A stretch of 64,000 nucleotides of DNA, from contig CALWVN010000006.1 of NCBI GenBank assembly GCA_944384995.1, positions 30,443 through 94,442 on the forward strand, given 5' to 3'. Below the pieces are notes generated by a model. That model had not been told where the DNA came from, searched no databases, and saw nothing but the letters and a program-made list of their open reading frames with translations. Below are positions 8,410-56,820 of the stretch, piece after piece. Both the position numbers and the translations under genes were made by a program. This DNA is from an uncultured Clostridia bacterium (GTDB lineage Bacteria; Bacillota; Clostridia; Oscillospirales; Acutalibacteraceae). Position 1 is the stretch's first letter. Each line of letters starts with the position of its first letter.

Positions 8410-8906
8410 CAGCTTCTGTATTTCGCGAGGATGCCTGCGACATCGTCCTCGGTGATCTTGCCGTACACTTCGTCATTGACGGTCAGAACGGGCGCAAGCC
8501 CGCACGCGCCGATGCAGCGGCATGCCTCCAGCGAAAACGCACCGTCCGGCGTGCATTCGCCCGCGCCGATGCCTAAAAGCTCCGAGAGCTTGTCGAGGAT
8601 CTGCTGGGAACCTTTGACATAGCACGCCGTGCCCAGGCATACCGAAATGTTGGTCTCGCCTTTGGGCGACAGGGAGAACTGTGCGTAAAAGGTGGAAACG
8701 CCGTACACCTTTTCCAGCGGGATGTCCATCCCCTCGGCGATCATCACCTGTACCTCATAGGGCAGGTAGCCGTAGATCTCCTGCGCCTCCTGCATGACGT
8801 GCATCAGCTGGCTTTTGTCATCCTTGCACGCCTCGATCACCGCTTGCAGCCGCTGGGCCTGTTCGGGTGTGCCGCGAAACGGGATCGTACTGATTTTTTT
8901 GAGCAT
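8409..8906 (-). CDS. hydC: NuoE-like [2Fe-2S] subunit of the bifurcating hydrogenase
   Basis: 165 aa from the chosen ATG. A NuoE/HydC fold is shown by the helical N-terminus (LQAVIEACKD...), YGVSTFYAQFSL, and the four-Cys [2Fe-2S] site in CLGTACYVKG (two ligands) and EACRCIGACGLAP (two). It works with HydA and HydB at the entry of the operon. The reading frame is open 28 codons further upstream, but AGGAGG 10 bases before the ATG at 8906 and family length favour this start. Confidence 0.93.
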   Translation of the reverse strand: MLKKISTIPFRGTPEQAQRLQAVIEACKDDKSQLMHVMQEAQEIYGYLPYEVQVMIAEGMDIPLEKVYGVSTFYAQFSLSPKGETNISVCLGTACYVKGSQQILDKLSELLGIGAGECTPDGAFSLEACRCIGACGLAPVLTVNDEVYGKITEDDVAGILAKYRS

Positions 8907-8991
8907 TCTTGACTTTCCTCCTTTGCAAAAGCCACGTGCCGCGCACAGTTTGTGCGTTCGGCCACACAACTTTCGCGTATACACATCCATT

Positions 8992-9030
8992 ATAGCAGAA
9001 AGAATGTTAAAAATCTATCATTTTTTACAA
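8992..9030 (-). promoter_or_regulatory. Promoter and possible operator of the hydrogenase operon
   Basis: On the minus strand TGC-TATAAT, an extended -10, lies at about 8991-8996, roughly 85 bases before hydC. Just upstream is an 8/9 inverted repeat, TGTTAAAAA (9005-9013) and TTTTTTACA (9021-9029). The half sites recall the redox repressor Rex (TTGTTAA) but the spacing does not fit the Rex consensus, so the regulator is uncertain. The -35 is not well conserved. Confidence 0.5.
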
Positions 9031-9123
9031 AAAGTTTATCAGTATTTTCTTACTGATTTGTATGTTTTTACATATCCAATATGAGCACTATAGCTCACCT
9101 TAAAATTGTATCAAATGAGACAT

Positions 9124-10476
9124 TTAATAAGTTGAAGCTTCCATATTCTGCGGCAAACAGACCGCAGCGAGCTGTGCCGCCGCATTGGGAAAATCCGAAG
9201 CGCGCACACCCGAGCAGGCGAGGAACAGCGTGCAAGCGCCGTTTGCGTCATTTTCCGCACGCAGCGAAATGCCCGTTTTTCGCGCCCGCAGCTCCAGATC
9301 GCCTGCGGCAAGCGGCGTGCGCAGACGTACCTGTACGATAAAACCTGTCTCGCGCAAACGCACCTCCGCAGCTTCGCCGAACGCCGCGTGCACCGCGGTT
9401 TCCAAAAGCCGCGCTTTCTGGGTGTAAAGCTTTCGGACTTTTCGAATCTGTCCTGCCAAGTGCCCGTCACGGATGAATTGACACAGGGCGATCTGCTCGG
9501 CTTTGGAGGCCGTTTGGTTGTAAAGCGGCGCAATCTCGCGGTAGCGCGCCGCGAGGGAATCCGGCAGGACGAGAAAGCTGATGCGAATGGAGGGCAGCAG
9601 CAGGCGCGAAAAGGTTCCGATATACACCACGTGCCGCCCGCCGTCGAGCCCCTGCAGCGCGGGGGCGGGGCGGTCAAAATAGCAGAATTCATTATCGTAG
9701 TCGTCTTCAATGAGCAGCGTCCCGCGCGCCGAGATGCGCTTGAGCAGCGCAATGCGCGCGTCGGTCGGCATCACGTCGCCGCGGCGGTTCATGTGGGAGG
9801 GGGAAATATAAAAAATCTGTGCGTCCGCCTCGCGCTCGCGAATCGTGAAGCCGTAATCCTGAAATACAGCGCGCCCCTGTAAAAACGCCGGGTCGCAAAA
9901 CGCAACGGTTTTTTTGTCATGCAGCACAGCACACAAAATATGTAATAGACTCTGCACGCCCGCGCCGATGACAATGGAATCCGCACGGCAGACGACATTG
10001 CGCTTTTCGGCAAGGTACTGTGCCAGCGCCTCGCGCAGATCCCGTTCGCCCTGTACCTCACCGTAAGAAAGCAGACGCTCATCCTGCCGCAGTGCGCTTT
10101 TTAAATAGCGCCGCCACAGGTTGAAGTCAAAGCTCTCGCGGTCTACGGAAAGCGATGCGAAATCATACAGCGGCGCGGCGGTTTTTTCCGCCTGTGGTGC
10201 AAGTGCCGGGCGCGGGGCGTGAAAATACAGGTCGGTCACGAAGTAGCCGCTTTTCGGTTTGGAAAGGATGTAGCCGTCTGCGCAAAGCTGCAAATAGGCG
10301 CCTTCTGCCGTCGTACGGCTGACCCCGAGCGTTTCGGCACAGTGCCGCAGGGAGGGGAGCTTGGCGTTGGGCAGCAGCTTGCCGCTGACGATCAGTGACT
10401 TATAATAATTGTATACCTGCATATACAGCGGCGTGTCCGTATCCAGCAGCGGTGAAAACTCAGCTTTGGTTTCCAT
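9124..10476 (-). CDS. MocR/PdxR-like GntR regulator with aminotransferase domain
   Basis: 450 aa. An N-terminal GntR winged helix (about 15-82: PSLRHCAETLGVSRTTAEGAY) is joined to a fold-type I aminotransferase domain (about 115-450). MocR proteins usually bind PLP on a Lys in GTFSK. Here the motif is GTFSRLLLP, with Arg291 (CGC, 9604-9606). The EDDYDNEF segment that contacts the pyridine ring is retained. The gene is divergent from a pyridoxal kinase and an ECF transporter, which points to control of vitamin B6 salvage. Loss of the Schiff-base Lys suggests non-covalent ligand sensing or a changed ligand. Confidence 0.88.
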   Translation of the reverse strand: METKAEFSPLLDTDTPLYMQVYNYYKSLIVSGKLLPNAKLPSLRHCAETLGVSRTTAEGAYLQLCADGYILSKPKSGYFVTDLYFHAPRPALAPQAEKTAAPLYDFASLSVDRESFDFNLWRRYLKSALRQDERLLSYGEVQGERDLREALAQYLAEKRNVVCRADSIVIGAGVQSLLHILCAVLHDKKTVAFCDPAFLQGRAVFQDYGFTIREREADAQIFYISPSHMNRRGDVMPTDARIALLKRISARGTLLIEDDYDNEFCYFDRPAPALQGLDGGRHVVYIGTFSRLLLPSIRISFLVLPDSLAARYREIAPLYNQTASKAEQIALCQFIRDGHLAGQIRKVRKLYTQKARLLETAVHAAFGEAAEVRLRETGFIVQVRLRTPLAAGDLELRARKTGISLRAENDANGACTLFLACSGVRASDFPNAAAQLAAVCLPQNMEASTY

Positions 10477-14097: not shown

Positions 14098-15369
14098 ATG
14101 TTTGTAGATATTGCAAAAATCAAGATCAAGGCGGGCGACGGCGGCGATGGCGCCGTCGCATTCCACCGTGAAAAATATGTGGCGTCCGGCGGTCCTGACG
14201 GCGGCGACGGCGGGCGCGGCGGCAACATCGTGTTCGTCGCGGATGACAGCCTTTCCACGCTTGCGGACTTCCGCTATAAGCGCAAATATACGGCGGAAAA
14301 CGGGCAGAACGGGCGCGGCGCGCACTGCAACGGCAAAAAAGGGCAGGATCTGGTCATCCGCGTCCCGCGCGGCACCGTTATCCGTGAGGTGCAAAGCGGC
14401 GCGGTGCTCGCCGATATGTCCACAGACGAACCGTTCATCGCCGCAAAGGGCGGCAAAGGGGGATTTGGCAACCGCCATTTTGCCACGCCCACGCGCCAGA
14501 CCCCGCGTTTTGCGAAAAGCGGCGCGCCGGGTGAATCGTGGGAGGTCTCTCTGGAGCTGAAACTGATCGCCGACGTGGGGCTTTTAGGCTTTCCGAATGT
14601 CGGCAAATCTTCGCTTCTCTCGGTCGTCAGCGAAGCCAAGCCCATCATCGGCGATTATCACTTTACAACGATCACCCCCGTGCTCGGCGTGGTGCGCATG
14701 GGCGAAGGGCAGAGCTTTGTCATGGCGGATATTCCCGGCCTTATCGAAGGCGCCGCCGAGGGCGTGGGGCTCGGGCACGCGTTTCTGCGCCATGTGGAGC
14801 GCTGCCGTATGCTTGTGCATTTGGTGGACGTCGCAGGCAGCGAGGGGCGCGATCCGATCGAGGATTTTGAGAAGATCAACGAAGAACTGCGCAAATTCAA
14901 TCCCGAGCTCAGTCAATGCCCGCAGATCGTTGCGGGCAACAAGATCGATCTTGCCGAGGACGAGCAGCGCGAACGCTTCAAGGCGTATATCGAAAAGCAG
15001 GGCTTGCCGTATTTCGAGATCGTTGCACCGATCCGCTACGGCACGCAGGAGCTCATCAACGCCGTGGCGGCAAAGCTCGCCACACTTCCGCCCGTCAAGC
15101 ACTACGAGCCTGAGGAGATCCCGATGGAGCTGCTCGAAAAAGATAAGAAAAACGGCTTTACGGTCACCGTGCGCGACGGGGTGTATATTGTGGAAGCCGA
15201 GTGGCTCTATAAAATTCTTCTGAAAACCGATATGGATGACTACGAATCCCTGCAATATTTCCAGAATGTCCTGCAAACAAGCGGTATTTTGGACGCCCTG
15301 CGGGAAAAAGGGATCGGGGAAGGCGACACCGTCAGCATTTACGACTTTGAATTCGACTATGTGCCGTAA
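14098..15369 (+). CDS. obgE: GTPase ObgE/CgtA
   Basis: 423 aa. The N-terminal glycine-rich Obg domain (VDIAKIKIKAGDGG, GGPDGGDGGRGG) spans about 1-157. The G domain shows GFPNVGKSSLL (Walker A), the DIPGLIEGA switch and NKIDL, and a C-terminal OCT domain ends at about residue 423. Obg is an essential ribosome-associated GTPase linked to 50S maturation, (p)ppGpp signalling and, in Bacillus, sporulation. AGGAAAG precedes the ATG at 14098. mrnC follows at 33 bases, so the two are probably one operon. Confidence 0.96.
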   Translation: MFVDIAKIKIKAGDGGDGAVAFHREKYVASGGPDGGDGGRGGNIVFVADDSLSTLADFRYKRKYTAENGQNGRGAHCNGKKGQDLVIRVPRGTVIREVQSGAVLADMSTDEPFIAAKGGKGGFGNRHFATPTRQTPRFAKSGAPGESWEVSLELKLIADVGLLGFPNVGKSSLLSVVSEAKPIIGDYHFTTITPVLGVVRMGEGQSFVMADIPGLIEGAAEGVGLGHAFLRHVERCRMLVHLVDVAGSEGRDPIEDFEKINEELRKFNPELSQCPQIVAGNKIDLAEDEQRERFKAYIEKQGLPYFEIVAPIRYGTQELINAVAAKLATLPPVKHYEPEEIPMELLEKDKKNGFTVTVRDGVYIVEAEWLYKILLKTDMDDYESLQYFQNVLQTSGILDALREKGIGEGDTVSIYDFEFDYVP

Positions 15370-44105: not shown

Positions 44106-44483
44106 ATGACTGACACATTATTTGAACAACTCGGCGGTACTTATACACAGATTGGTGACTATCTCTTGCCGGACTTGTCATTACCGGCGGAAAAAGAAAC
44201 GGGTAATATCGGCGTGTGGGCATCAAGGCGAAAACGATATTTGAAACAACATCATAAGGTGCTGTACTACAATTTACTCACTTCCGGCAAACTCCATTCC
44301 CACCTCGCAGACGTCGAAGAACAAGCACAGGATCTTTTTTCTCGGCTCGTAAAAGAACACGCCGAAAAAGCAGGTATTACTGAAAACCTCAAAGCAACAG
44401 ACCAAATGAAGTGGGTGCAGAGTATAAATAATATTCAATGGTCAATCAATGAATATATCGAAAAAGAAATTATTACACAATAA
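44106..44483 (+). CDS. TnpV-family transposon-encoded protein
   Basis: 125 aa, matching the small TnpV family found on clostridial mobile elements (GGTYTQIGDYLLPDL, RKRYLKQHHKVLYYNLLTSGKL, QWSINEYIEKEIITQ). Function is not established. It lies alone on the plus strand between a sequestering hairpin and a terminator, convergent with the defence operon. Confidence 0.8.
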   Translation: MTDTLFEQLGGTYTQIGDYLLPDLSLPAEKETGNIGVWASRRKRYLKQHHKVLYYNLLTSGKLHSHLADVEEQAQDLFSRLVKEHAEKAGITENLKATDQMKWVQSINNIQWSINEYIEKEIITQ

Positions 44484-44485
44484 AG

Positions 44486-44529
44486 AAAATCACCGCCACT
44501 GAATATAATAATCGTGGCGGTGATTTTTT
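44486..44529. terminator. Bidirectional terminator between tnpV and the defence operon
   Basis: A 14-bp perfect stem (44486-44499 / 44514-44527) with A/T runs on both sides, placed where the two convergent transcripts meet. Confidence 0.9.
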
Positions 44530-46858
44530 AGATGCTCGATAACTTGTTAATATAATCCTTAACGTCAAAATCTTCTTCGTTAATCTCTTGGCTAATCAAG
44601 AATAAGGATTGGATACTTTTAAAAATAGTATCTTTTTCTTGCTTGATACGTTCTAAGCTGATATTACCAAGCGCAATCCATAATAAATAGAAATTCTGAT
44701 TTGTTCTGCTTTGAGTGTTTTTCTTAGTATGGCAAATCATTCTATTGAAGTTTTCAAATTCATCTCCACATAAATGTTGAAGTTTATCTATGAAATCTTT
44801 TACATCTAGAAGTGCATCTGCAAACACTGGATCGTTATTGCTAGATATTTCTGTGAGACGATTTGTTATATTGCTTTTTGTATTAATTCGGGCATTCAAA
44901 CGTTGATTTCTCACAAATATATTCAAATAGTCTCCCGGTTTAATAGAGTCTTTTCTTTGGATATACGCTAGATATGCTAACATCGTTATTAGCTCTTCGT
45001 TTTTCATTCGAGTATCAACAGGTTTGAAAAGCTTTCCTGCATATTGCTCAGCATACAGTTTTATCGTTTCAACAAACTGCCTTGAAACAAACGCATTCCA
45101 CATTTCGAATGTATTTGCTTCAATCGGAAAAGGTTTAGAATTCAAACGTAAGAACAAGTCAATGGGACTAAAATTGGGGTTTTGTGCTTGGTTGATTTCA
45201 ACGATATCAATTTGGAAATCAAGAATACGATCCTTTAGCGAAGCGTCATATTCTTCAACTCCATCGATATTTCTTCCGTTTAATTCTTTGAGAAAGCGAA
45301 GTTTTGAAAGCTTAAATCCATGTTTGTTGGATAACTGATCTTTGCCATTTTCATCTTTATATTTTTCTTGTAGAAAACCTAGTATTGAAAGCAGACGCTG
45401 CTGTCCATCAATAACTTCACTTACATTATCATCTCTTCTGTAAATAAATATTGGAGGAATTCGAATTCCAAGCATAATACTTTCAAGCAAGTACGAAGCC
45501 TTTTGAATGCTATTTGACACTTCTGATCGTTGATAATCTGGTCTTATTATAAATTGCGTTGATTTAACATCAGTCAAAATATCATAAACAGTCGCAGAAA
45601 CAGGATCAGTTTTTGATAATTTAAAATCCTTGAATTGATCTATAGAAGGATTTTGTGCCATTATTACATCAAATTCACTCTTGTTCTTAATATGAGCATC
45701 AAAGCTTATGTTGGTGGTGTTCGAAAGGTAGTTTGATACAAAAAGATATCTGTTGATAATGGACTTATAATAATGGCTACCCGTAGCAAAGAATACCATA
45801 TCAAAGTCTTTTTTCTCTACAAGTATTCCCTCCCAAAAAACATCTTTGTTGGAACAATCATCTACATCTGTAGCTATTGCTGCCATATCTAAATTTTCAA
45901 ATTTATCAGGTGCTTGCTCTCGAACAACGGATAAGCCCCAATACATTGCTTCGAAGAAAAGATTATTTTCTGCTATTACTGAGTTAATCTTAGCCAATTC
46001 GCCTCTAAGTTGGAATAGCTTATTGATAATCAATTCAAATGTACTAATAGTATTATCAATTGGTTCTTTCTCCACTTTAAGAAGTAAGTAATTGCGTATT
46101 ACATCAGATTTTGAACTTGCTCCCGCATAGCTTTGAATAGGTATGTATTGCATCGACAAAACATTTCTAGTACGAGAAAGGATATAATTAATTTTATCTC
46201 GTTCTTTTAATGTCTGCTTTCTTTTTGGCATTAATACAAGCTGGCATTTTTTCAAAAATTCGCCATCTTGTTCTAACTTTGTTTTTAAGTCACGAACTAA
46301 AAGATCGTTAATATATGCGGCTCTTTCAATTTCCTGCGGCTTTAATGCTATTATACCGGAATTATATCGAGTAAATATTTCTTTTTTGACTTTATCTTCC
46401 TGTTCTGGTGTTAGTGAAGGTTCGTTAACTATACTAAATTGAAGAATTCGAATTTTTGTGTTATTAAAACTACCCTTGATTGCATCAGGAAGTTCGGAAT
46501 AATACTTTCCTTCTAAGGATGTCAAAGACTTTAACCCATTCGCATCCAATGGAAGCTTGTCTTCAAGAAATCGTTTAATCGTTTCATATCTTTGACGACC
46601 ATCAATTACTTCATTCTTTTTTCCATCATCAAACAATACTATAGGCGGGATTTCAGTTCCAAGCAAAATACTTTCAATAAAGTATGAAGCCTTTTCATTA
46701 TCCCAAACATACTTTCTCTGGAAATAAGGAGAATAATCAATACGATTGGCATATCTCGCATTTAAGAAAGTATGAGAGATAGATTTTACTGAATTTTCTA
46801 TTTTCAAATGGGTTTTAAATATTTCGATAATATCAGAACAATCAAGTTGAATACTCAT
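44528..46858 (-). CDS. Tandem-DUF262 protein (GmrS-like ParB/Srx-fold repeats)
   Basis: 776 aa. Two DUF262 domains in one chain. The first has YFQRKYVWD (about 45-53), ESILLGTEIPPI and DGRQR (86-90). The second has RPDYQRSEV (about 439-447), ESIMLGIRIPPI and DGQQR (484-488). DUF262 is the GmrS half of type IV GmrSD enzymes, where the DGQQR-containing ParB-like fold binds and hydrolyses NTP. No DUF1524/HNH nuclease (GmrD) motif is visible, so the protein may act as sensor or regulator for the neighbours. AGGAG precedes the ATG, 11 bases after the upstream gene: last of a five-gene operon. Confidence 0.85.
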   Translation of the reverse strand: MSIQLDCSDIIEIFKTHLKIENSVKSISHTFLNARYANRIDYSPYFQRKYVWDNEKASYFIESILLGTEIPPIVLFDDGKKNEVIDGRQRYETIKRFLEDKLPLDANGLKSLTSLEGKYYSELPDAIKGSFNNTKIRILQFSIVNEPSLTPEQEDKVKKEIFTRYNSGIIALKPQEIERAAYINDLLVRDLKTKLEQDGEFLKKCQLVLMPKRKQTLKERDKINYILSRTRNVLSMQYIPIQSYAGASSKSDVIRNYLLLKVEKEPIDNTISTFELIINKLFQLRGELAKINSVIAENNLFFEAMYWGLSVVREQAPDKFENLDMAAIATDVDDCSNKDVFWEGILVEKKDFDMVFFATGSHYYKSIINRYLFVSNYLSNTTNISFDAHIKNKSEFDVIMAQNPSIDQFKDFKLSKTDPVSATVYDILTDVKSTQFIIRPDYQRSEVSNSIQKASYLLESIMLGIRIPPIFIYRRDDNVSEVIDGQQRLLSILGFLQEKYKDENGKDQLSNKHGFKLSKLRFLKELNGRNIDGVEEYDASLKDRILDFQIDIVEINQAQNPNFSPIDLFLRLNSKPFPIEANTFEMWNAFVSRQFVETIKLYAEQYAGKLFKPVDTRMKNEELITMLAYLAYIQRKDSIKPGDYLNIFVRNQRLNARINTKSNITNRLTEISSNNDPVFADALLDVKDFIDKLQHLCGDEFENFNRMICHTKKNTQSRTNQNFYLLWIALGNISLERIKQEKDTIFKSIQSLFLISQEINEEDFDVKDYINKLSSI

Positions 46859-46869
46859 AATTTTATCTC

Positions 46870-48390
46870 CTAATTAATTTTTATTCTTGTTGGAATTTTT
46901 TTTGCCTCAAAACCATTCACTGTTTTTTGAACTACAGAACCTTGGAAGAAAAATTCATTATTATAATTCATACGCTGCTTAATGAGTCCATCTAATGCAA
47001 ATCTAAATGTGTATTGCCAACTCGGATTAGAAAAGGCGTTAGGAATCTGATGAATCGCTGGTAACCAATCGTACAGGTAACGGCACTCATCAAATAACAT
47101 CAAATCCGTAAACATTCTTTTTTGCTTTGCTACATATGTTAACCTAAGTGCCTTATCGCTAACATAATGCATTGGATGAGATAATTGGCTAATAACAGCG
47201 TCATAAAACAGAAGTCGATTTGGTTTATCCAAAAACTGATACATAGATTGCTCTTTGTCGAAAAACACCAAAGTGTCTTTTAGAGCTGGAGAGATATCAA
47301 CACCTTTTGACTTTATTTCATACAATTTCTTAGACGAGGATAAAAGGTCATATCCACTAGTCGGTGCTGATATTTCACTTATAAGTTTGTCCACCTTTGA
47401 AATACCTTCAAACCTTGATGAGGTTTGCTTTAAAAAACAATTCATAGCCAAGTACTTATATAAGGTGTTGTCTTTTATCGTGTTCACATCTTGAAATTGA
47501 AGTGAACTTATTGGAACAGGCTGCGTATTTGATAAGGAGCGCAAATAATTGGAATTGCAGAATCTTACTGTGGGAATTGATATGGATGCTGTGTTACAAA
47601 TCATAGCACTTACAAAATCACCATAGGCTTCCTCAAGATTTTCTTCAACTCTTTTCTTTCCCGCTTCATAACCGTCATTAAATACTACTGTACCTTGATG
47701 ATCCAATAAACAAGCGTTCCGGTTATCTCTAATAAAATTGTACCTAGAAATGATATCAATGTATTGTTGCTTTTCCACACCTACAGTTTCATCCAAATAA
47801 GCAAAATTAGATATCAATATACCGGGAGAACTCAGCCGATGATGTTTGAACATTGAGGCAATACATCTTAGTGCGTGCTGATCGGAAATTAAAGAAGCGC
47901 AAGCATCAATATATACAATATCAAAGGTTTTAGGTGATGCTTCAAAGAATCGCTCTATGGATGTTTTTATCAGTTTTGGCTGCATAAAGTTTGTACTATC
48001 GATTGATGTCAGTGCCTGTAAATATGTATTCCTTTCACATTCAAAGGCCCAAATATTTTGAGGCTTGATACCCATAGAAACAAACTCCGCAAAATCGTTT
48101 TCCGGTTCAGGACCGGAAAGATAACATACAGACAATTCTTCCGGACGTTTAACACCTAGATTGTTTGCGTGCATACTTTCCCATTCCTGTATGTACGATA
48201 CGTCAATCTTGCGGGCTTCTTCTTGTTCGTGAGATTCTGCCAGGTCATTAAAATAATCATATAAATCCCGGACGTATGAGTGGCGGACACAGCAGGCTTG
48301 TGAGCGTTCTGCTGTCAGCATTTCTACGGCTCGTCGTATAACAGCGTGCCTAACAGTGTTTTTTGTCTCTTGTCTGTATGTTACATCCAT
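46870..48390 (-). CDS. Uncharacterised protein with a methyltransferase-like fold
   Basis: 506 aa. Residues about 86-190 look like a class I SAM-dependent methyltransferase core: a beta-strand CYLSGPEPENDF (SAM-loop position, 89-100), acidic strand end IWAFECE (113-119), and FDIVYIDACASLISDQHA (156-173). The catalytic NPPY/DPPY of DNA amino-methyltransferases is absent; IDAC takes that place. The remaining about 300 residues match nothing I recognise. It begins 39 bases after mod and ends 11 bases before the tandem-DUF262 gene. It could be a divergent methyltransferase, a specificity factor or an SAM sensor. Confidence 0.6.
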   Translation of the reverse strand: MDVTYRQETKNTVRHAVIRRAVEMLTAERSQACCVRHSYVRDLYDYFNDLAESHEQEEARKIDVSYIQEWESMHANNLGVKRPEELSVCYLSGPEPENDFAEFVSMGIKPQNIWAFECERNTYLQALTSIDSTNFMQPKLIKTSIERFFEASPKTFDIVYIDACASLISDQHALRCIASMFKHHRLSSPGILISNFAYLDETVGVEKQQYIDIISRYNFIRDNRNACLLDHQGTVVFNDGYEAGKKRVEENLEEAYGDFVSAMICNTASISIPTVRFCNSNYLRSLSNTQPVPISSLQFQDVNTIKDNTLYKYLAMNCFLKQTSSRFEGISKVDKLISEISAPTSGYDLLSSSKKLYEIKSKGVDISPALKDTLVFFDKEQSMYQFLDKPNRLLFYDAVISQLSHPMHYVSDKALRLTYVAKQKRMFTDLMLFDECRYLYDWLPAIHQIPNAFSNPSWQYTFRFALDGLIKQRMNYNNEFFFQGSVVQKTVNGFEAKKIPTRIKIN

Positions 48391-48429
48391 TTTATCTAAT
48401 CCCTTGAATCTTAATATCTTTTGCGTTTA

Positions 48430-50271
48430 TTAAAGCGCCCAAACCGTTTCGTCGCCGCAGATGTTGCGAATTTTCAGGCGAAGCGGTTTTTGTTCGCAGC
48501 GGATTTTTCCGTCCCAGAAGACCTTTGTTTTATTTCCGTTTACAACGACAAAACCGTTTTTGTCAATCTTGATTTCGCTGTCGGAATGCCACTCTCCTTC
48601 AGCAGCAGTGCAATCAATGCTCAAGAACTCAATTAGTTCCAAACCGTCCTCGCTGATTTCTATTGGTTTATAAGGTTTCTTTGCGGAAGAATTGAGGAAC
48701 GCCTTTTCGTTGAACTCAGCTATTTTTGAAAGCACACGGTCGCTGATAAATTTATCAATGGTAACAGCATATCCGCCAAATAAATCATCGTGGGTTTCTT
48801 CGGTGTGAAATTCCGCATAATCTCCGATTATGACATCATCAAGAATTGTTTTTAGATCTCTCAGCTCAATTTCAATATTTGTGCTGTCATCATCTTTTAT
48901 AAACTTTTGAATCTCGGCTTCATTGGTAATATCTATGTAATAGACGATTACTTTTTTGATGTTGCTATCCAAATCGGGTATAGCCTGATGAATAATACGG
49001 TTCATGGTCACTTTATCAAGAAGTTTTGATGCGCTGTCCATCAGGTTCGGCACATATACAGGAACGGTACCAAGTTTGCTGTCGGAAATTGCACCCTCCC
49101 AGAAGGAATCAAGCGAATCCTCGTTTTTAAGTCCGGGAATCAGCGATTTGATTTTATCCATTGTCTGCACGGGATTGCGGTAGAGTTGAACGCCATCTTT
49201 AATTTCAAGTACATCAAATTCAGCACCATCAGCAACAAGACGGTCACGGGTTGTTTGAATAGAATTCAGTCCGATGTCGCAATGAATAAACTTGCGTCCA
49301 AGTTTGTTTGCTACAGCAGCAGTAACACCACTACCGCCGAAAAAGTCTGCGACAAGCATTCCAGCGTTAGAGCACATTTTAATAATCCTGGATAGTAACG
49401 CCTCTGATTTTTGCGTTGAATAATCCAACTTTTCGGGGTCAGTTGGACTTGTGATTTTAGGAACATCTGTCCACCAATCATTAATAGGCGTCCCTTCTTC
49501 TCTCAGTTCAGCATTTTCCCCTTTTACTTGCGTTCTACCACGTTGTATTGTCCCCTCTGAATATGCACGGTATTCTGTATTAAACACCCATTGATCATTC
49601 CACTCCTCATCTCCAGAGCCCATAGAATACCAAAAAATAGTGTCGTGTTTGTGCGGCATCTCATGCTTAGGTATGCCTCCACCGCTATAGCACCAAATAA
49701 CTTCATTACGAAAACGATTTTCACCAAAAATCTCGTCCATTAGAATTTTCACATAATGTCCTATATGCCAATCCAAATGAACATAAATAGATGCAGTCTC
49801 ACTCATCACGCTTTTGATTGCCATAAGGTTTTCGTAAATCCAGTTGAGATACTTTTCTTTATCCCAAACATCACCGTACATCTTTTCCTCGAAAGCTTTC
49901 AGCTCGTCAATATCAAGCTCCTGTTCAGCTTGGGCGATAGCTTCTGCCACCTTGGGATTACGGCGGATATATACTTTCTTAGCATAATCAGCTCCACTGG
50001 CAAAAGGAGGATCAATATAAACAAGGTCAACTTGAATGCCTTGTTCTTTGAGATAGGCACAAGCAGACACACATTCTCCTCGAATGACCATATTGCCGTC
50101 GGCATTTTCGCCCACGGTTTCCTGCTTCTCCATTTCATACAAGGGCATACCACGCTGGATCGTCATTGAAACATCGTCAGCGCCTTTGTATTTCAGTATT
50201 CTGTTAAAGTTACCGAGCACAGCTTGTCCTTCCACCGGCTCCGGTATAAATGGTACATATTTAATCGGCAT
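48430..50271 (-). CDS. mod: Type III restriction-modification methyltransferase (Mod)
   Basis: 613 aa. Beta-class adenine methyltransferase order: motif IV DPPF (87-90, in YIDPPFASG) before motif I DFFGGSG (309-315). Segments SIYVHLDWHIGHY and ENRFRNEVIWCYSGG are typical of type III Mod. The region between (about 190-300) and the C-terminal about 250 residues should hold target recognition and Res contacts. Mod alone methylates one strand of an asymmetric site and, with Res, makes the restriction complex. The start overlaps the stop of the 68-aa gene by one base. Confidence 0.92.
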   Translation of the reverse strand: MPIKYVPFIPEPVEGQAVLGNFNRILKYKGADDVSMTIQRGMPLYEMEKQETVGENADGNMVIRGECVSACAYLKEQGIQVDLVYIDPPFASGADYAKKVYIRRNPKVAEAIAQAEQELDIDELKAFEEKMYGDVWDKEKYLNWIYENLMAIKSVMSETASIYVHLDWHIGHYVKILMDEIFGENRFRNEVIWCYSGGGIPKHEMPHKHDTIFWYSMGSGDEEWNDQWVFNTEYRAYSEGTIQRGRTQVKGENAELREEGTPINDWWTDVPKITSPTDPEKLDYSTQKSEALLSRIIKMCSNAGMLVADFFGGSGVTAAVANKLGRKFIHCDIGLNSIQTTRDRLVADGAEFDVLEIKDGVQLYRNPVQTMDKIKSLIPGLKNEDSLDSFWEGAISDSKLGTVPVYVPNLMDSASKLLDKVTMNRIIHQAIPDLDSNIKKVIVYYIDITNEAEIQKFIKDDDSTNIEIELRDLKTILDDVIIGDYAEFHTEETHDDLFGGYAVTIDKFISDRVLSKIAEFNEKAFLNSSAKKPYKPIEISEDGLELIEFLSIDCTAAEGEWHSDSEIKIDKNGFVVVNGNKTKVFWDGKIRCEQKPLRLKIRNICGDETVWAL

Positions 50272-50477
50272 TATGCTTGACCTCCGTTTTTCATATAGTT
50301 TACAAATTGCTCTAATGAGGTTGCCATACTATACGATGTTATGTATTCTTGTGCCAACTGCACTCTTTGCGCATCGGTTAGCCCATCTAATGCCTTGACC
50401 AACTCAATCAGTTTGCTTTTTGCATTTGTGTATTTGTCATCAAACTCGATCTCTACAGTAGGTCTAATTCCATTCAT
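50271..50477 (-). CDS. 68-aa protein coupled between res and mod
   Basis: Short acidic/helical protein (IEFDDKYTNAKSKLIELVKALDGLTDAQRVQL...LEQFVNYMKNG). Its start overlaps the res stop by one base and its stop overlaps the mod start by one base. GGAGG precedes its ATG. Tight coupling implies a product needed in fixed ratio with Res and Mod. No known family recognised; an assembly factor or restriction modulator are possibilities. Confidence 0.75.
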   Translation of the reverse strand: MNGIRPTVEIEFDDKYTNAKSKLIELVKALDGLTDAQRVQLAQEYITSYSMATSLEQFVNYMKNGGQA

Positions 50478-53347
50478 TACGATTCCTCCTTGAAAAACTC
50501 ACAGATCTTCCGGCGAGTCAGTGTCATTCTATCCTTTTCGGGTAGTCTATCTTCTAAATACAGATAGTCAAAGCGTTCGTAGCCGAATGCTGTGTTATTC
50601 TGCTTTGAAAACTCAGTTTCCATAAAGGTTTTCTTTTCCTTGAATGTGGGATCTTTAGCGTAAATTTCGCCTTTGGTTTCAACAACGATAATCTTATGAA
50701 TTTTACCGTCTTTACGCTTGATAATCAGAAAGTCGGGTGTGTAGATGCCAACATAACTCCACTTACTTCCGTTCTTCTTATAACACTTGATCTTAAACTC
50801 GGTCATAGCACGGTCGCCGTTGTAGTAAACCTCCAAGCCAAGATTTTCGATCTCGTCAAAGGACAACACTTCTTTTAAGAATGTCTGTTCGAATCCGCTA
50901 TCGGTACGATAGGGCAAATAGTGGAAGGAATGATCTTTTCGAGGATGAGATGTAATTTTCGATCTGAGCATTTCTACAATTTTTGTATCGCCCATTTCTT
51001 CTGCCAGATTAATCATCTGTTGTGTTTTGGAATCAGCCTTTAATTTCCCGGTATCATCCAATATGATTCTATCGACCATTTGCACATCAGGATAGTAGTT
51101 CTGTGGCTTGTCGGTATAAACTTCAGGAGTGAAGTTTGCAATATTCAAGAGATTGGCTTCTTCGGGTATCAGTTCGTCAGTGGTGTTAAAGTCAAACTTA
51201 TCGCAGAATGCTTTGCGGATATTTGCTTCTACCAACTTGCGATTATATTTGGAACTGTAATAATGAGAGCCGTCTTTTTCAAAAGTGATTTTTTGATACA
51301 CAGCTTTCAACTGTTCTGCATATTGCATCATCTCTGCAACTGTGGGTGAGCCAAAACCGCCTTTCATAATCCCGTATATCCAAGAATTAAAGGTGGCAGG
51401 TTCGGTGCCATATTCTGTATCGTCAACGGTGATACTGGTCTTGCTTTCATCCATTGAAAGATCGGTAGTTTTGATAATGCTGTCTGCAAGGCGTGCTGAA
51501 TCAGCCGAAGCCGCAATCGTGTTTGCAGGATCAGCCTTTTCGACGGTAAGGGTATCATAATTGATTTTAAGCTGATAAAAATCAACTTTGGGAAGTTTCA
51601 AATGTGCTGTACGGTTATAACGCTTCAGCGGTGTTTTGCTATTATCAGCAGACGAAAACTCTTTGAGGGAGATATGGTGCTGTTGTTCAAGCTGCATATT
51701 CAGCTTGTCGGCGTTACTTTCATTCAAATAAATGAGCGCTGTTTCGGGGTTACCTTTAATCACCTGGCGCAAGCAGCGGCAAGAGGTTTGCAGAACCATA
51801 TTTGTGGGGCAGTCGCCCTCTTGAGAAAGAATGATACCTGTAAGACTGCGGCAGTCCCAGCCTTCTTTACCGATCTGCACAAGAAGAATAATGCGAATCT
51901 TGGAAATAGACTTGTCCAAAATGTCAAACTGCATTTGACTGTCGGCAGGCATTTTGTACTGCTTATTGCCCTTGTGGGATTTGAGGATTACATCCGTTCC
52001 AAGACCGTATTCTGCAACAATACGTGATACCAACGGATAGACAACTTCCTCTAATTTTTCGATAGTACCGCAGTAGATACCAAGTTTGGCAGTCAGTCCA
52101 TCGGCATAGACAGTGTCCTTGTATGTATCAAGGAACTCTCTGACACCTTTTTCGATAATCAAACTACTGTCGGCGATATCTGCAATTTTAACGATAGGAC
52201 GTTTTAAGAAGTTGCCTACGCCATCAATAAGAGGATAGTAGTAAACAATGTTTGTGATCTCAGCAGTACCAACAGAAAGAGAATCTACAACCTTGAACTT
52301 CTCTGCTTTTTCAAGATAAGGTGTGCCGGAAAAACCGATAACGGAGTTGACGGTGTTATTCTGTGCCCATTTGGTTACGACGGCACGAAGCTTTATTTCA
52401 TCGCTAACAGCGTGATGCACCTCGTCAATGAAGATAGAGAGCGATGGCAACTTACCGATAAGATTGCGGAGCTCGTTAGCCTGTCTGTCTTTTTCATCGT
52501 CACTTTCTTCAAACATATTGATTTGTCCGCTCTTCTCTTGGATACGGTCAAGAATTACCTTTTCGGCGTTAGTTACTGAAACCAATCCGAAAAGTTCGGA
52601 AAGCGGCTGATGATTAGCAATTTTCTGAACATTCGGGTTCTTGGTTTTATTTGATTTATTTGCAGTTTTTCCTTGATCAAGCACCTCAAAGGAAATCATA
52701 CGCTTGATATCCGTTGCCGCAGGTTCGGGAATGATCCACGCAGGGTTAAAGTTTTGAATTGTCTTAAGGCTCGGCACAACAGAGGATTTCAAACCCGATG
52801 GTGCAAAAATGATAAAGTTGTGGGCGAAAGCAGGATTGGTAGGCTCGTTCAGAGCAAAATATAAATCAAGATAGATAAAAGCTGCCATCAAGTATGTCTT
52901 ACCTGCACCCATCGGAAGGCTGAACAGATAATCAGTATAGGAAACTCCGTAAAAGGCAGTACGGAAGAAAGCGTCATAGTCAATGCTTGACGGATCTTTC
53001 TTGATTTGCTTTTCGAGTTTTTCAGAAACCTGTTCGCCTTTATCATTGGTTAAGCGAGAATACTCGAACAATGCCGTTGCCGCAGGGTTTTCCTCTAAGT
53101 ATTCACGGGTTGCGGTAGATAACTCTATGTTGTTCAGATTGATAGAATTAAAGCACCCATATCTAAAAAGAAACTCCAATGGCTTACATTCACAACCGAT
53201 TTTGAGGAACAGATAAACCTTGATAGCTTCGATCTGAGCATCTCTCATTTGCCCGGTTTTCTCTATATATTCAATTAAATTATGAACAGTGCATTGCTCG
53301 GAAGCATACCACTCTTTGCACTTGTTCTCTATCATTTTATAGAACAT
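50477..53347 (-). CDS. res: Type III restriction endonuclease subunit (Res)
   Basis: 956 aa. Superfamily 2 helicase: Walker A MGAGKT (146-151), DEVHH box (about 315), motif VI-like LQTSCRCLRQV. A C-terminal PD-(D/E)XK nuclease is seen as TPDFLIIKRK...VVETKGEIYAKD near residues 880-915. It translocates or diffuses on DNA after site recognition by Mod and cuts unmodified DNA. It is the first gene of the operon; GGAGG lies before the ATG. All catalytic motifs look intact, so the system may be active. Confidence 0.92.
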   Translation of the reverse strand: MFYKMIENKCKEWYASEQCTVHNLIEYIEKTGQMRDAQIEAIKVYLFLKIGCECKPLEFLFRYGCFNSINLNNIELSTATREYLEENPAATALFEYSRLTNDKGEQVSEKLEKQIKKDPSSIDYDAFFRTAFYGVSYTDYLFSLPMGAGKTYLMAAFIYLDLYFALNEPTNPAFAHNFIIFAPSGLKSSVVPSLKTIQNFNPAWIIPEPAATDIKRMISFEVLDQGKTANKSNKTKNPNVQKIANHQPLSELFGLVSVTNAEKVILDRIQEKSGQINMFEESDDEKDRQANELRNLIGKLPSLSIFIDEVHHAVSDEIKLRAVVTKWAQNNTVNSVIGFSGTPYLEKAEKFKVVDSLSVGTAEITNIVYYYPLIDGVGNFLKRPIVKIADIADSSLIIEKGVREFLDTYKDTVYADGLTAKLGIYCGTIEKLEEVVYPLVSRIVAEYGLGTDVILKSHKGNKQYKMPADSQMQFDILDKSISKIRIILLVQIGKEGWDCRSLTGIILSQEGDCPTNMVLQTSCRCLRQVIKGNPETALIYLNESNADKLNMQLEQQHHISLKEFSSADNSKTPLKRYNRTAHLKLPKVDFYQLKINYDTLTVEKADPANTIAASADSARLADSIIKTTDLSMDESKTSITVDDTEYGTEPATFNSWIYGIMKGGFGSPTVAEMMQYAEQLKAVYQKITFEKDGSHYYSSKYNRKLVEANIRKAFCDKFDFNTTDELIPEEANLLNIANFTPEVYTDKPQNYYPDVQMVDRIILDDTGKLKADSKTQQMINLAEEMGDTKIVEMLRSKITSHPRKDHSFHYLPYRTDSGFEQTFLKEVLSFDEIENLGLEVYYNGDRAMTEFKIKCYKKNGSKWSYVGIYTPDFLIIKRKDGKIHKIIVVETKGEIYAKDPTFKEKKTFMETEFSKQNNTAFGYERFDYLYLEDRLPEKDRMTLTRRKICEFFKEES

Positions 53348-53492: not shown

Positions 53493-53924
53493 TTACAATA
53501 AATACTTCGACACTAAATAACCACCTAATATGCCCAGTAAACAGAAAAACAGATTCCACCACCACGATTTTTTGCTGGATTTTTTCTCATCTTCTTTGAG
53601 TACACCACCGAAAAGTTTGGTAACGGCTTCAACTTCTTTTTCACTCAAAGATGCTATAATCTGGGATGTTTGAGCCTCTTTGCTCCACTTCTCGGCTAAT
53701 TCTTTCTGTTGCTGAAATTCGGATTCGATTTCAGCCATTAACATAGAGGTTTCGTGGAGATTGCTAGTTAATTTTTCGAGCTTCTTTGATAATGCTTCCT
53801 TTGACTTTTTTTCATCCTTTAATATTTGCTTCTTTCTAAAAAAGAGTTCAATAAAACTATCACTAAATCCGGTTAAGGAAGATATTATTCCTGAGAATAG
53901 CTCTATTAACACATCAACAATCAT
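53493..53924 (-). CDS. Coiled-coil protein with C-terminal membrane anchor
   Basis: 143 aa. A hydrophobic start (VLIELFSGIISSL) is followed by a long charged coiled coil (about 30-100: KKLEKLTSNLHETSMLMAE...) and a C-terminal transmembrane helix (WWWNLFFCLLGILGGYLVSKY). No family recognised. It follows the four-helix membrane protein at 10 bases, so the two are probably a pair. Membrane proteins beside nuclease systems often act as effectors, but nothing here proves that. Confidence 0.65.
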   Translation of the reverse strand: MIVDVLIELFSGIISSLTGFSDSFIELFFRKKQILKDEKKSKEALSKKLEKLTSNLHETSMLMAEIESEFQQQKELAEKWSKEAQTSQIIASLSEKEVEAVTKLFGGVLKEDEKKSSKKSWWWNLFFCLLGILGGYLVSKYLL

Positions 53925-53934
53925 AACTTAACTC

Positions 53935-54498
53935 CTAAACATTTTTCTTATTCTTTCCACCTGTAGCAAGTAACGCAATTACAATTATGAGTAAAACCGG
54001 GAATCCAATATAATTTACCATAGGATTTGCAATGGTAGGTATTGCTTTAGCCGCAAGACCAAACACACAACCAAGTCCTGCAAAAAATACGAACCCCAAT
54101 ATACGATGTCCCAAATTTTTAAATCCCTTGATAAAAAGACATAACAGGGCTATAAGCCATACAAGAACTCCGCCGGTTATAAACTTGATCAGATTAACAG
54201 TATTATCTGCTTCTTTTATGAAAACGCTGCCTATATTTCCAGAAGACTGCTTTTCAATTTCAGTGAGAATGCTATTGTATTCTTTGTACAAGATTTCATT
54301 TTCTTGTATTTGTTCAACATTGATTTCTGAAACTTTTGTTAAAATGTCAATACGGTCATTTACTCGATTATAATAAAAGAAATTGGCATCAATATAAGGG
54401 AATAGAACTAAGACCGTTAACAATACAACTAGTAGAAAAACGTATAATTTTGGGTTTTTGAAGTTGTTTTTTATAAGATCAAATATTTTTTCAAACAT
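53935..54498 (-). CDS. Small polytopic membrane protein
   Basis: 187 aa with four predicted helices (about 19-35, 100-120, 127-145, 155-175). A loop of about 60 residues rich in Glu/Ile between helices 1 and 2 may be a short extracytoplasmic coiled coil. GGAGAAGG precedes the ATG at 54498. The open frame extends upstream through the Fic relic, but that part is not real coding. Function unknown. Confidence 0.65.
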   Translation of the reverse strand: MFEKIFDLIKNNFKNPKLYVFLLVVLLTVLVLFPYIDANFFYYNRVNDRIDILTKVSEINVEQIQENEILYKEYNSILTEIEKQSSGNIGSVFIKEADNTVNLIKFITGGVLVWLIALLCLFIKGFKNLGHRILGFVFFAGLGCVFGLAAKAIPTIANPMVNYIGFPVLLIIVIALLATGGKNKKNV

Positions 54499-54515
54499 AA
54501 TCCTTCTCCAATGGT

Positions 54516-54590
54516 TTACAATTCTTCCGTATTGAAGGTTGTATATCCTTCTTAATGGTAGCTGTGGTAGATGCTTTATATGAGCTTTAT
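54516..54590 (-). pseudogene. Relic of a Fic gene 3' end
   Basis: The minus strand can be read as S-I-Y-H-S-Y-H-stop-EGYTTFNTEEL-stop, a decayed copy of the C-terminus of the small Fic protein at 55693 (YMKGIDHSYYYEGYTTFKTEEL region). It starts directly after the stop of the larger Fic gene. It carries in-frame stops and is not translated as such. Confidence 0.7.
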
Positions 54591-55672
54591 TAAACCAAAA
54601 CTTCCCATTTGCCGTAACGTTTGCCGCTTTCACGGCGGATATAGTTTTTATCCTGCAGGGATTTCATAATACGCTTAATTGTTCTAATCGATTTACCTGA
54701 TGCATCTGCCAATTCTTGTTGTTTAGCAGATGGATTTTTTGCAATCAGTTCTAAAAGTGCCACTTCTTCCAAAGTGCAGTCCAAAGTGCCAAATTGACAC
54801 TTTGGAGTTTCAGTGGTGGCACTTTTGGAAGCGGTTTCATCCACAAAATCAACGTGCATATAGCGATTCTTTAATTCGTAATTTGTACCGAGCAGAAGGT
54901 TTGAGAAAAACAATTCCAAAAACTTTGTGGTGGAATGAATACCTTTTTGCAAATCATTATAGTTTGCTCGAACCAGTGCGTTGCGGAAGTACCAAGAGTT
55001 CTCACGGAACGCATCGTTATTGACACGGAACCCAAAGGTTTTCATATACTTAATCATAAACACGGCGGTGGCTCTTGTGTTGCCCTCGCCGAAGGGGTGA
55101 ATCTGCCAAATGTCCGACGCAAATTTTGCAAGATGCTTTACCGACGCTTCAACCGACAGTCCCTCATAGGAAAACTGCTTTTCGGTGGCAAAATCATAAT
55201 CCAAAGTATCTTTTATACTGTTAAAATCTGCATAGATAACTGTTTCGCCGTTCAGTATCCATTCCTTTTTGGAAATGTTGTACTTTCGGATTTGTCCGGC
55301 GTGGTCAAATACGCCCTCAAACAATCTGCGGTGAATGGTAATCCACTCGGCAGGGGAAAACTGGAATGCTTTTTCGCCTAAAAGCTTTGTGATTCTTGCG
55401 GAAACGATGTCGGCTTCCTTTGTTTCGTTTTCCGTTTCGGTGCTGGTGGTTCTCTGCTCGTAATAGCTGTGAATACGCTTCTGAGCCTCGTCAATGGTGA
55501 TTTTGCCCTCGATGTGATCCTTTGCAGTATCCAGCAAATATTCGGAGGTTTTCAGCCCGTCAACTGCCTGCAGACCGATAGCAGTTTGCCACGCTTCACT
55601 TTTTTCGGCTCTTTCAGGCTCGCCCTGCTTTATATATTCTTCAAGTTCAAATTGCCATTTCTTGTCGGGCAT
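54590..55672 (-). CDS. Fic-family protein with N-terminal helical and C-terminal winged-helix domains
   Basis: 360 aa. An N-terminal helical part (about 25-75: TAIGLQAVDGL...HIEGKITIDEAQ) resembles the VbhA antitoxin, but the expected inhibitory (S/T)xxxE(G/N) reads LQAVDG. The Fic core follows, with HPFGEGNTRA (192-201); the canonical GNGRxxR has Thr199 and lacks the second Arg. Residues about 295-360 form a winged helix (AKQQELADASGKSIRTIKRIM), so DNA binding is likely. Such proteins usually transfer AMP to a target. GAGGT precedes the ATG, 20 bases after the smaller fic gene. Confidence 0.85.
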   Translation of the reverse strand: MPDKKWQFELEEYIKQGEPERAEKSEAWQTAIGLQAVDGLKTSEYLLDTAKDHIEGKITIDEAQKRIHSYYEQRTTSTETENETKEADIVSARITKLLGEKAFQFSPAEWITIHRRLFEGVFDHAGQIRKYNISKKEWILNGETVIYADFNSIKDTLDYDFATEKQFSYEGLSVEASVKHLAKFASDIWQIHPFGEGNTRATAVFMIKYMKTFGFRVNNDAFRENSWYFRNALVRANYNDLQKGIHSTTKFLELFFSNLLLGTNYELKNRYMHVDFVDETASKSATTETPKCQFGTLDCTLEEVALLELIAKNPSAKQQELADASGKSIRTIKRIMKSLQDKNYIRRESGKRYGKWEVLV

Positions 55673-55692
55673 ATTTGTACCTCATTTCGTTA

Positions 55693-56298
55693 TCATAATT
55701 CTTCCGTCTTAAAGGTTGTATAACCCTCATAGTAGTAGCTGTGGTCGATGCCTTTCATATAGACCTCACGACTGTTTATTTCGTCTGTAAGCGCACTTTT
55801 CAGCAACACTTTGATTTCCACATCTTTAATCGGACTGCGCTCCATAGCGAGCAGACAATCTTCTTTGTCAATTTTGCTCCAATCGACAACCTTGCCGATT
55901 TCGTTTTTCAAGATATGGTCGAGCCAAATGCGGGTGCTGCGACCGTTGCCCTCACGGAAAGGGTGGGCAATGTTCATCTCAACATACTTTTCTACTATCT
56001 CGTCAAAGTTTGACTGCGGCATTTTGTCAATGTTATCAAGAGCCGCTTGCAAATACATTAAAGGCGCAAAGCGAAAATTGCCCTTTGCAATATTGACTGT
56101 TCTGAGTTTGCCTGCAAAGTCGTAAATGTCCTCAAAGAGGTACTTATGAGTTGCTTGCAATGTAGAAAACTTGCCGGCGGGGAGATTATATAAAACACCC
56201 TTTTCAAAAAGGTCAACAGCCTTTTTCTTGCTGATTCGTTCTTCCTCACGGGCAAGGTCGGCGGAGCTTGTCAACCCTAATTTATTTTCAAGTGCCAT
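55693..56298 (-). CDS. Fic-family adenylyltransferase, small form
   Basis: 201 aa. A compact Fic domain with the full motif HPFREGNGRSTR (112-123); the catalytic His and both Arg are present. LFEDIYDFAGKLRTVNIAKGNFRFAP is the usual target-clasp region. No inhibitory helix is apparent at either end, so control could come from a separate antitoxin or from the neighbouring larger Fic protein. The ATG at 56298 follows GGGGGTG. It lies 18 bases after the DUF6548-like gene. Confidence 0.88.
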   Translation of the reverse strand: MALENKLGLTSSADLAREEERISKKKAVDLFEKGVLYNLPAGKFSTLQATHKYLFEDIYDFAGKLRTVNIAKGNFRFAPLMYLQAALDNIDKMPQSNFDEIVEKYVEMNIAHPFREGNGRSTRIWLDHILKNEIGKVVDWSKIDKEDCLLAMERSPIKDVEIKVLLKSALTDEINSREVYMKGIDHSYYYEGYTTFKTEEL

Positions 56299-56316
56299 AT
56301 CGCACCCCCAAATCAA

Positions 56317-56802
56317 TTATAATATTTTTGATATTAAAACGATTGCAACGACAATAATTAAAATACCTACTAAAAATGTCATGCAACCGGCAACCTGTGG
56401 GGATGATTTCTTATGATTAGCAGTCGGCTGAGAATATGTGTATGTAGGGGATTTCGGCTTATGATTTTGTACTAGTTTTTGAGCCGGGCGAGGTTTGGTG
56501 GCTTTTGAATACAAAGCGAGAGGATCGGTTTGATTCATTATGCGCGAATAAAAATCGTCAAGCCACTCAGTATCACTCGGTTCGCACATATTTTGCTCGG
56601 TGCAATCAGGTTCATGTGCTATTTGGTTTCTAACCCAACGGTAGTGTTTCAGTTGTTTTAAGTCGTCATCCCAACCTCTTACAAGACAAGAACCACGGGG
56701 AGTATTTATCATTTCATCAATATAAGCGGATATACGCCTATCGTCATTTAATACTTCGCCGCATAATTTTTCAAGATGTTTATACGATTCAATAAAACCC
56801 AT
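56317..56802 (-). CDS. DUF6548-like protein with C-terminal membrane helix
   Basis: 161 aa. A helical start (MGFIESYKHLEKLCGEVLND, YIDEMINT, LKHYRWVRNQIAHEP) resembles the DUF6548/HEPN-like small proteins seen on clostridial elements. A low-complexity linker leads to a C-terminal transmembrane helix (MTFLVGILIIVVAIVLI). R-N-x-x-A-H in RNQIAHEP resembles the RX4-6H motif of HEPN RNases, which is worth noting in a defence island. GGAG 9 bases before the ATG decides the start. Confidence 0.6.
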   Translation of the reverse strand: MGFIESYKHLEKLCGEVLNDDRRISAYIDEMINTPRGSCLVRGWDDDLKQLKHYRWVRNQIAHEPDCTEQNMCEPSDTEWLDDFYSRIMNQTDPLALYSKATKPRPAQKLVQNHKPKSPTYTYSQPTANHKKSSPQVAGCMTFLVGILIIVVAIVLISKIL

Positions 56803-56820
56803 ATTGTACATCTCCGAAAC

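Follow-up and report, generated by a model that had tools for sequence, protein, structure and literature searches.

We asked whether five adjoining genes of an uncultured Clostridia bacterium form one defence system or two. The genes lie in a stretch of 64,000 nucleotides (the window; contig CALWVN010000006.1 of assembly GCA_944384995.1, forward-strand positions 30,443 to 94,442). A sequence-only reading of this DNA had joined all five into an operon on a mobile element, with a type III restriction–modification (R–M) core, a GmrS-like double domain and a second protein of the S-adenosylmethionine (SAM) fold. The predicted open reading frames (ORFs) and their coordinates confirmed this layout: five minus-strand ORFs occupy 44528–53347 and are read in the order Res (50477–53347, 956 amino acids (aa)), P68 (50271–50477, 68 aa), Mod (48430–50271, 613 aa), X506 (46870–48390, 506 aa) and D262 (44528–46858, 776 aa). 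Res and P68, and likewise P68 and Mod, overlap by one base (TAATG), Mod and X506 are 39 bp apart, and X506 and D262 are 11 bp apart. The data described below indicated that the five genes are very probably two adjoining modules, Res–P68–Mod and X506–D262, meeting in the 39 bp at 48391–48429 of the minus strand.

The five window proteins were compared with 37 loci by tblastn (E≤1e-3), an approach independent of ORF calling. In the 28 loci with an X506 relative (L002–L029; L002 and L010 share a species, L008 is truncated and L023 incomplete) no match to Res, Mod or P68 was found; the X506 gene of L018 was confirmed in this search. D262 was present in four of the 28, always directly after X506: in L005 (74% identity, 10 bp from X506), L006 (72%, 11 bp), L007 (63%, −4 bp) and L024 (47%, 26 bp). 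A GGAG-type site precedes D262 in all four and in the window. The L007 contig holds 582 bp before X506, where the end of Mod would show, given the window spacing. The five loci with Res or Mod relatives (L034, L035, L036, L040 and L041), three of them readable past Mod, contained neither X506 nor D262. At the DNA level, the window aligns with L005 and L008 only from the first base of X506 (48390) onwards, and with L034 only as far as the last base of Mod (48430). Because homology to the relatives breaks between Mod and X506, co-linearity does not make the five genes one unit. The five X506 proteins paired with D262 fell together on one side of a branch (support 100/100) in a tree of 24. We also observed that the pair in L006 is flanked by direct copies (8732–9365 and 14505–15138) of a 634-bp stretch, which are 91% identical and contain a 185-aa gene each.

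These results bear directly on the proposal that the five genes are a hybrid in which X506–D262 would detect the modification state of DNA and act as a modulator of Res. The common strand and the short spacing after Mod agree with it, as does the occurrence of DUF262 genes inside type I R–M loci reported in excerpts of PMC11411939, but the pair stood without Res and Mod in 4/4 loci, the homology edge is sharp, and the five-gene arrangement was seen in the window only. The co-occurrence search that the sequence-only reading had called for thus found the last two genes apart from type III genes, and we consider the hybrid very unlikely; sequence beyond Mod in genome G022 could change this verdict. 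The broader suggestion of a new multi-gene defence type survived in a smaller form, in that the X506–D262 pair matched no known system in the libraries, whereas P68 has relatives in type I R–M operons. The literature, covered in part, yielded no paper describing X506–D262 by title or abstract.

The first module would be a type III R–M system, in which Mod methylates the recognition site and Res translocates and cuts unmethylated DNA. Res matched Pfam ResIII (9.8e-8, above the curated cut-off), and its sequences GAGKT, DEVH, GKEGWDCR, QTxCRCLR and PDF..ETKG were kept in all three aligned proteins; we take these to be the helicase motifs of a superfamily 2 enzyme and a C-terminal PD-ExK-like nuclease motif. 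The PDF..ETKG end was kept in 3/3, yet all Pfam nuclease matches of Res fell below cut-off. With NCBIfam, the restriction match scored 34 bits where the cut-off is 800, and none of the PADLOC models for type III restriction endonucleases was matched. Mod matched Pfam N6_N4_Mtase (2.4e-39) and PADLOC MTase_III (3.9e-48) and carries the motif IDPPF, as in an N6/N4 adenine-type DNA methyltransferase. With a ResIII helicase in one protein and N6_N4_Mtase with IDPPF in the other, the type III core named earlier was upheld. Res was found in 4/147 genomes of the order (E≤1e-30) and 2/391 of the class (E≤1e-60), and Mod in 3/291 genomes (E≤1e-80), the window's own genome being included each time. Viral contigs gave no relative in single-protein scans with Res or Mod or in a scan with the Res alignment, and plasmids gave no match to Res at E≤1e-40.

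What sets this locus apart from other type III systems is P68 between Res and Mod, where its relatives have a 213-aa gene (L034) or nothing (L040). The gene order in L034 is Res, the 213-aa gene, Mod and a Ymh-family gene; in L040 Mod follows Res directly and IS21 genes come next, and in L041 Mod stands alone with 833 bp readable after it. The 213-aa gene (L034:10430–11071) has hydrophobic stretches and occupies the position that P68 has in the window, and a 216-aa gene in another locus (L055:8042–8692) looks similar by eye. The Ymh-family gene (PF09509; L034:13059–13754) directly follows Mod, at the place of X506 in the window.

P68 itself had relatives in two other genomes of 147 in the genome search, both weak (6e-4 and 8e-4), and in four other genomes of 265 when a three-row profile was used. 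The kinship was recovered at 3e-7 by blastp against the small set of window ORFs. Against a profile built from the four members outside the window, P68 scored 32.4 bits, compared with 5.2 for the runner-up among 505 window ORFs and 7.4 for the best of 2000 shuffles. Three of the four relatives lie between HsdS and HsdR of type I R–M operons (L050:8205–8396, L054:9246–9455 and L055:5819–5989), and the fourth (L049) is at a contig edge. In L050 and L054, where Pfam confirmed HsdM, HsdS and HsdR, the P68-like gene comes after HsdS and before HsdR; in L055 HsdM and HsdR were confirmed by Pfam, and the gene before the P68-like one, unscanned, reads like HsdS. One further gene separates the P68-like gene from HsdR in L050, one in L054 and six in L055, and the spot after HsdS in these loci looks like a cargo insertion site. 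Neither P68 nor the P68-like protein of L050 matched anything in plasmids, and no paper in the same partial literature coverage described the family by title or abstract. From profile and context, P68 is best seen as a small R–M-operon protein common to type I and type III systems; its relatives in type I R–M operons make it probable that P68 regulates R–M enzymes or helps to assemble them.

Turning to the second module, we found that D262 matched Pfam GmrSD_N (2e-34) over two stretches. The first copy has the motifs QR, DGRQR and FxxxN at residues 47, 86 and 162, and the second has QR, DGQQR and FxxxN at 443, 484 and 569; both sets of nucleoside triphosphate (NTP)-site motifs were kept in 5/5 rows. 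D262 has no EHxxP motif, and no DUF1524 or HNH Pfam match was found in D262 or in 24 X506 members, in agreement with the earlier description of a double GmrS-like protein without nuclease. The best plasmid relative is a Priestia megaterium protein that carries DUF262 and a C-terminal HNH domain in one chain (L044:7842–9545) and is related mainly to the second half of D262. Residues 361–762 of D262 align to its residues 54–475 at 36% identity. Because the HNH domain of the Priestia protein, at 519–565, falls outside the aligned part, D262 looks like a double version without the nuclease. Matches to D262 were found in 109 plasmid and 20 phage records, none covering 80% of the protein; its profile hit 1/147 genomes of the order, the window's own, and a scan of viral contigs with its alignment returned only the L024 contig again. 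D262 was the sole GmrSD_N protein found in its own genome, which is 86% complete. As for phosphorothioate sensing, no DndB match was found in this incomplete genome, where Ssp-type genes are still possible.

D262 shares the DUF262 motifs QR, DG(R/Q)QR and FxxxN with GmrSD, BrxU and SspE (motif list in the excerpted PMC11411939). It differs from these DUF262–DUF1524 proteins in having two DUF262 domains in one chain, in the lack of DUF1524 or HNH in either gene, and in having a methyltransferase-fold protein as its partner. A related arrangement is described in the same excerpts, in which TgvAB of Vibrio cholerae is likewise a two-gene unit with two DUF262 domains placed in an R–M cluster. There, the DUF262 domains belong to two proteins, TgvA and TgvB, the latter with a DUF1524 nuclease, whereas D262 is fused and lacks DUF1524, and the excerpts describe no X506 for TgvAB. 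RloF is given there as another DUF262 placement in or beside R–M loci. The nearest PADLOC model to D262 was NsnA of the Menshen system (NsnABC; 1e-58). Neither NsnB nor NsnC was among the matches listed for ten window proteins (for Mod, the best 25 of 52), and Menshen membership was rejected on an NsnA match alone.

Structure prediction, also called for by the sequence-only reading, succeeded for one protein of the pair and failed for the other. The AlphaFold2 model of X506 was confident (mean predicted local distance difference test score (pLDDT) 87.8, predicted template modelling (TM) score 0.91), but the model of D262, made from five rows, was too poor for use (mean pLDDT 58). All 15 matches of the X506 model in the Protein Data Bank (PDB) at E≤0.001 were methyltransferases. 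Two with low root-mean-square deviation, 9ri2 and 2esr, extend over 118 and 122 columns, and the TM-scores relative to all of X506 were about 0.2, so that most of the protein is uncovered. From secondary structure, we read the matched region as the strand–helix stretch at 88–197. Both marks of a class I SAM-methyltransferase fold, a Rossmann-like core and an acidic end of strand 2 (E117, invariant), are present in the model and the alignment. As modelled, X506 thus combines a core like that of class I SAM methyltransferases with a large helical part, consistent with the SAM-fold protein proposed earlier. Among viral models, Foldseek (E≤0.001) found just two matches, one unnamed and one a cap methyltransferase. 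The X506 and D262 profiles gave no credible match among sequences of solved structures.

In the 24-protein alignment, G93, P94, P96, N98, D99, E117 and D162 are invariant, and the C-terminal part holds many invariant polar residues. Amino-methyltransferases read DPPY at motif IV. This position reads DAC, DSC, DFT, DFC or DFI in X506, with IDAC in the window as the sequence-only reading had it. A role as DNA amino-methyltransferase was rejected, (D/N)PP(Y/F) being present in 0/24 rows. The same alignment bears on the idea that X506 is an active methyltransferase marking self, be it DNA, RNA or protein, and D262 a reader that blocks unmarked targets, the two forming an R–M-like or toxin–antitoxin-like pair. 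The predicted methyltransferase-like core with invariant acidic E117 and D162, the tight gene spacing and the GGAG-type site kept before D262 are in line with such a pair, but DPPY is absent from every row, most X506 loci have no D262, and no nuclease was recognised in D262. We regard this explanation as unlikely.

The X506 family proved to be rare but widely spread. At E≤0.001, neither the 197 genomes from the order nor the 398 from the phylum held it, apart from the window's own genome. Scans guided by alignment recovered at least 19 loci among 84,980 species, one genome per species (four-row alignment), and at least six in viral contigs, the counts being lower bounds because both scans used two short peptide patterns. 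A single-protein scan of viral contigs found no relative. Three of 72,556 plasmid records and none of 50,697 phage records held X506. The X506 genes of L028 and L020 had no near match among complete Escherichia coli genomes. The alignment (A2) and tree were made without L008, L023 and the plasmid rows L002–L004. The window protein had a single Pfam match, below cut-off (E 0.038), and none of the 24 members had a Pfam match at E≤0.01. Among PADLOC models, mad2 of MADS weakly matched 5/24 members (E≤0.01, best 1.3e-6) over about 70–120 residues of the core region, and PD-Lambda-5_A of PD-lambda-5 weakly matched 1/24 (3.8e-4); the window protein matched neither.

Ten genes near X506 at five loci, hand-picked for their defence-like look and so not an unbiased rate, all matched PADLOC at E≤1e-4. 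X506 without D262 lies beside the Gabija genes GajA and GajB in L009 (5637–9288) and in L011 (5673–9595, with other best models); in L013 (5805–9627) a Dsr1 divided between two genes lies near it, together with two cytosine methyltransferases. L024 has an AbiJ match near X506–D262, and L028 has PDC-S25 about 5 kb from X506.

On balance we incline, without great confidence, to the explanation that a type III R–M module stands beside an independent type-IV-like sensor and effector module, the two giving complementary cover. We infer that the second module is antiviral, what cue it senses and that X506 is its effector. D262 would sense invading, probably modified, DNA or another phage cue through its tandem DUF262 domains, and its binding and hydrolysis of NTP would gate X506, a putative methyltransferase-fold effector or co-sensor for which a modifier role is also conceivable. 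This mechanism is a possibility that we hold doubtful. By analogy, the neighbourhood with a type III system may give cover of both modified and unmodified phage DNA; we read the second module as complementary because TgvAB and BrxU show a like pattern. TgvAB, inside a type I R–M cluster, protects against phages with modified genomes and complementary cover is suggested for it (excerpts of PMC11411939), and BrxU and its BREX system give complementary resistance, according to the part of PMC10952713 consulted.

Several observations weigh against this explanation or against the division into two modules. The closest Res relatives, in G022 (L035; 97% identity over 425 aa) and G080 (L036; 86% over 176 aa), are on contigs that end inside Res and hide what follows Mod, and co-transcription of X506–D262 with Mod in this strain is possible. 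GC content points towards the division (Res 41.3%, Mod 41.9%, X506 36.8%, D262 32.3%; the pair well below the locus average in L005, L006 and L024), though as weak evidence, another cargo gene (53493–53924) having 34.7% and the L007 pair being close to its short contig. Because tblastn with P68 alone recovered 0/4 relatives at E≤1e-3, P68 kinship rests on search matches, blastp, the profile and context. No nuclease was recognised in X506 and its loop has the sequence GPEP, so the effector role proposed for it is a guess; the loop may resemble GSGPLP of nicotianamine synthase, which makes SAM binding possible. Finally, 24 of the 28 X506 loci have no D262 homologue in the sequence covered, so most of the family needs no D262. 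In these 24 no convincing match to D262 or to single-copy DUF262 profiles was found, and a diverged DUF262 gene could be missed. The profile of the first DUF262 copy also hit a 77-aa ORF in L019 (E 0.0032, 14.4 bits), which we take as chance. Left out of the ORF set for this test were L001, L030, L042 and L043, which duplicate the window or L024; the window copies L056 and L057 were in the set but went uncounted.

The scarcity of D262 raises the alternative that X506, carried by prophages and mobile elements, acts against phages on its own, and that in one Clostridia lineage it came to be regulated by a DUF262 protein whose HNH had been lost. The single pairing clade, the Priestia DUF262–HNH relative and the Gabija, Dsr1 and PDC-S25 genes near X506 fit this account. 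However, no flank exceeds about 12 kb and in several loci the contig stops near X506; L008 counts towards the 24 only because of a deletion, L023 is incomplete, a partner could be found among other same-strand neighbours (for example in L003), and the defence neighbours were hand-picked. We rate it as possible, though improbable on present evidence.

The setting of the five genes is that of cargo in what looks like a mobilizable element, as had been supposed. A TnpV gene (44106–44483) adjoins the end of D262, and two Fic genes, a small helix-turn-helix protein, an AAA_25 protein, a relaxase and a ParB_N protein are on the Res side. The two Fic genes (PADLOC candidates PDC-S72 and PDC-S04) and a DUF6548 gene at 54590–56811, upstream of Res, are likely another cargo unit; two small genes lie between them and Res (53493–54633), and a 143-aa protein from there weakly matches LeoC (6.4e-4). 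Such a setting could mean that X506–D262 is a maintenance or regulatory pair of mobile elements and not a defence. DUF262 has a ParB/Srx-like fold, and in L024 the pair follows two genes that read, by eye, like serine recombinases. Against this stand the defence genes near relatives, the L006 flanks, which by eye read like chromosomal genes, and L008, which keeps its flanks (99.3 and 99.5% identical to L005 on either side) and the first half of X506 but has no D262, suggesting that the rest was deleted or mis-assembled. A maintenance role is therefore quite improbable.

Returning to the explanation by two modules, we find that a tempting hybrid is replaced by two testable units. D262 offers a naturally occurring example of a DUF262 sensor in which no nuclease is recognised, and X506 is a rare but taxonomically wide protein family with some members beside defence genes. 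The small P68 family, spanning type I and type III operons, could expose a control point shared by restriction enzymes. Taken together, and tentatively, X506 may found a hitherto unrecognised family of anti-phage proteins, with a class I methyltransferase core and a large helical part, whose members in proteobacterial prophages and islands would mostly act without a DUF262 partner. In a single lineage of Clostridia, X506 may have been coupled to a double GmrS-like NTP sensor that lost its nuclease, giving a type-IV-like module with a non-nuclease effector, and P68, common to type I and type III enzymes, may point to a common control step. If this is true, there would be a type-IV-like module whose effector is not a nuclease, and type I and type III restriction would share a step of control.

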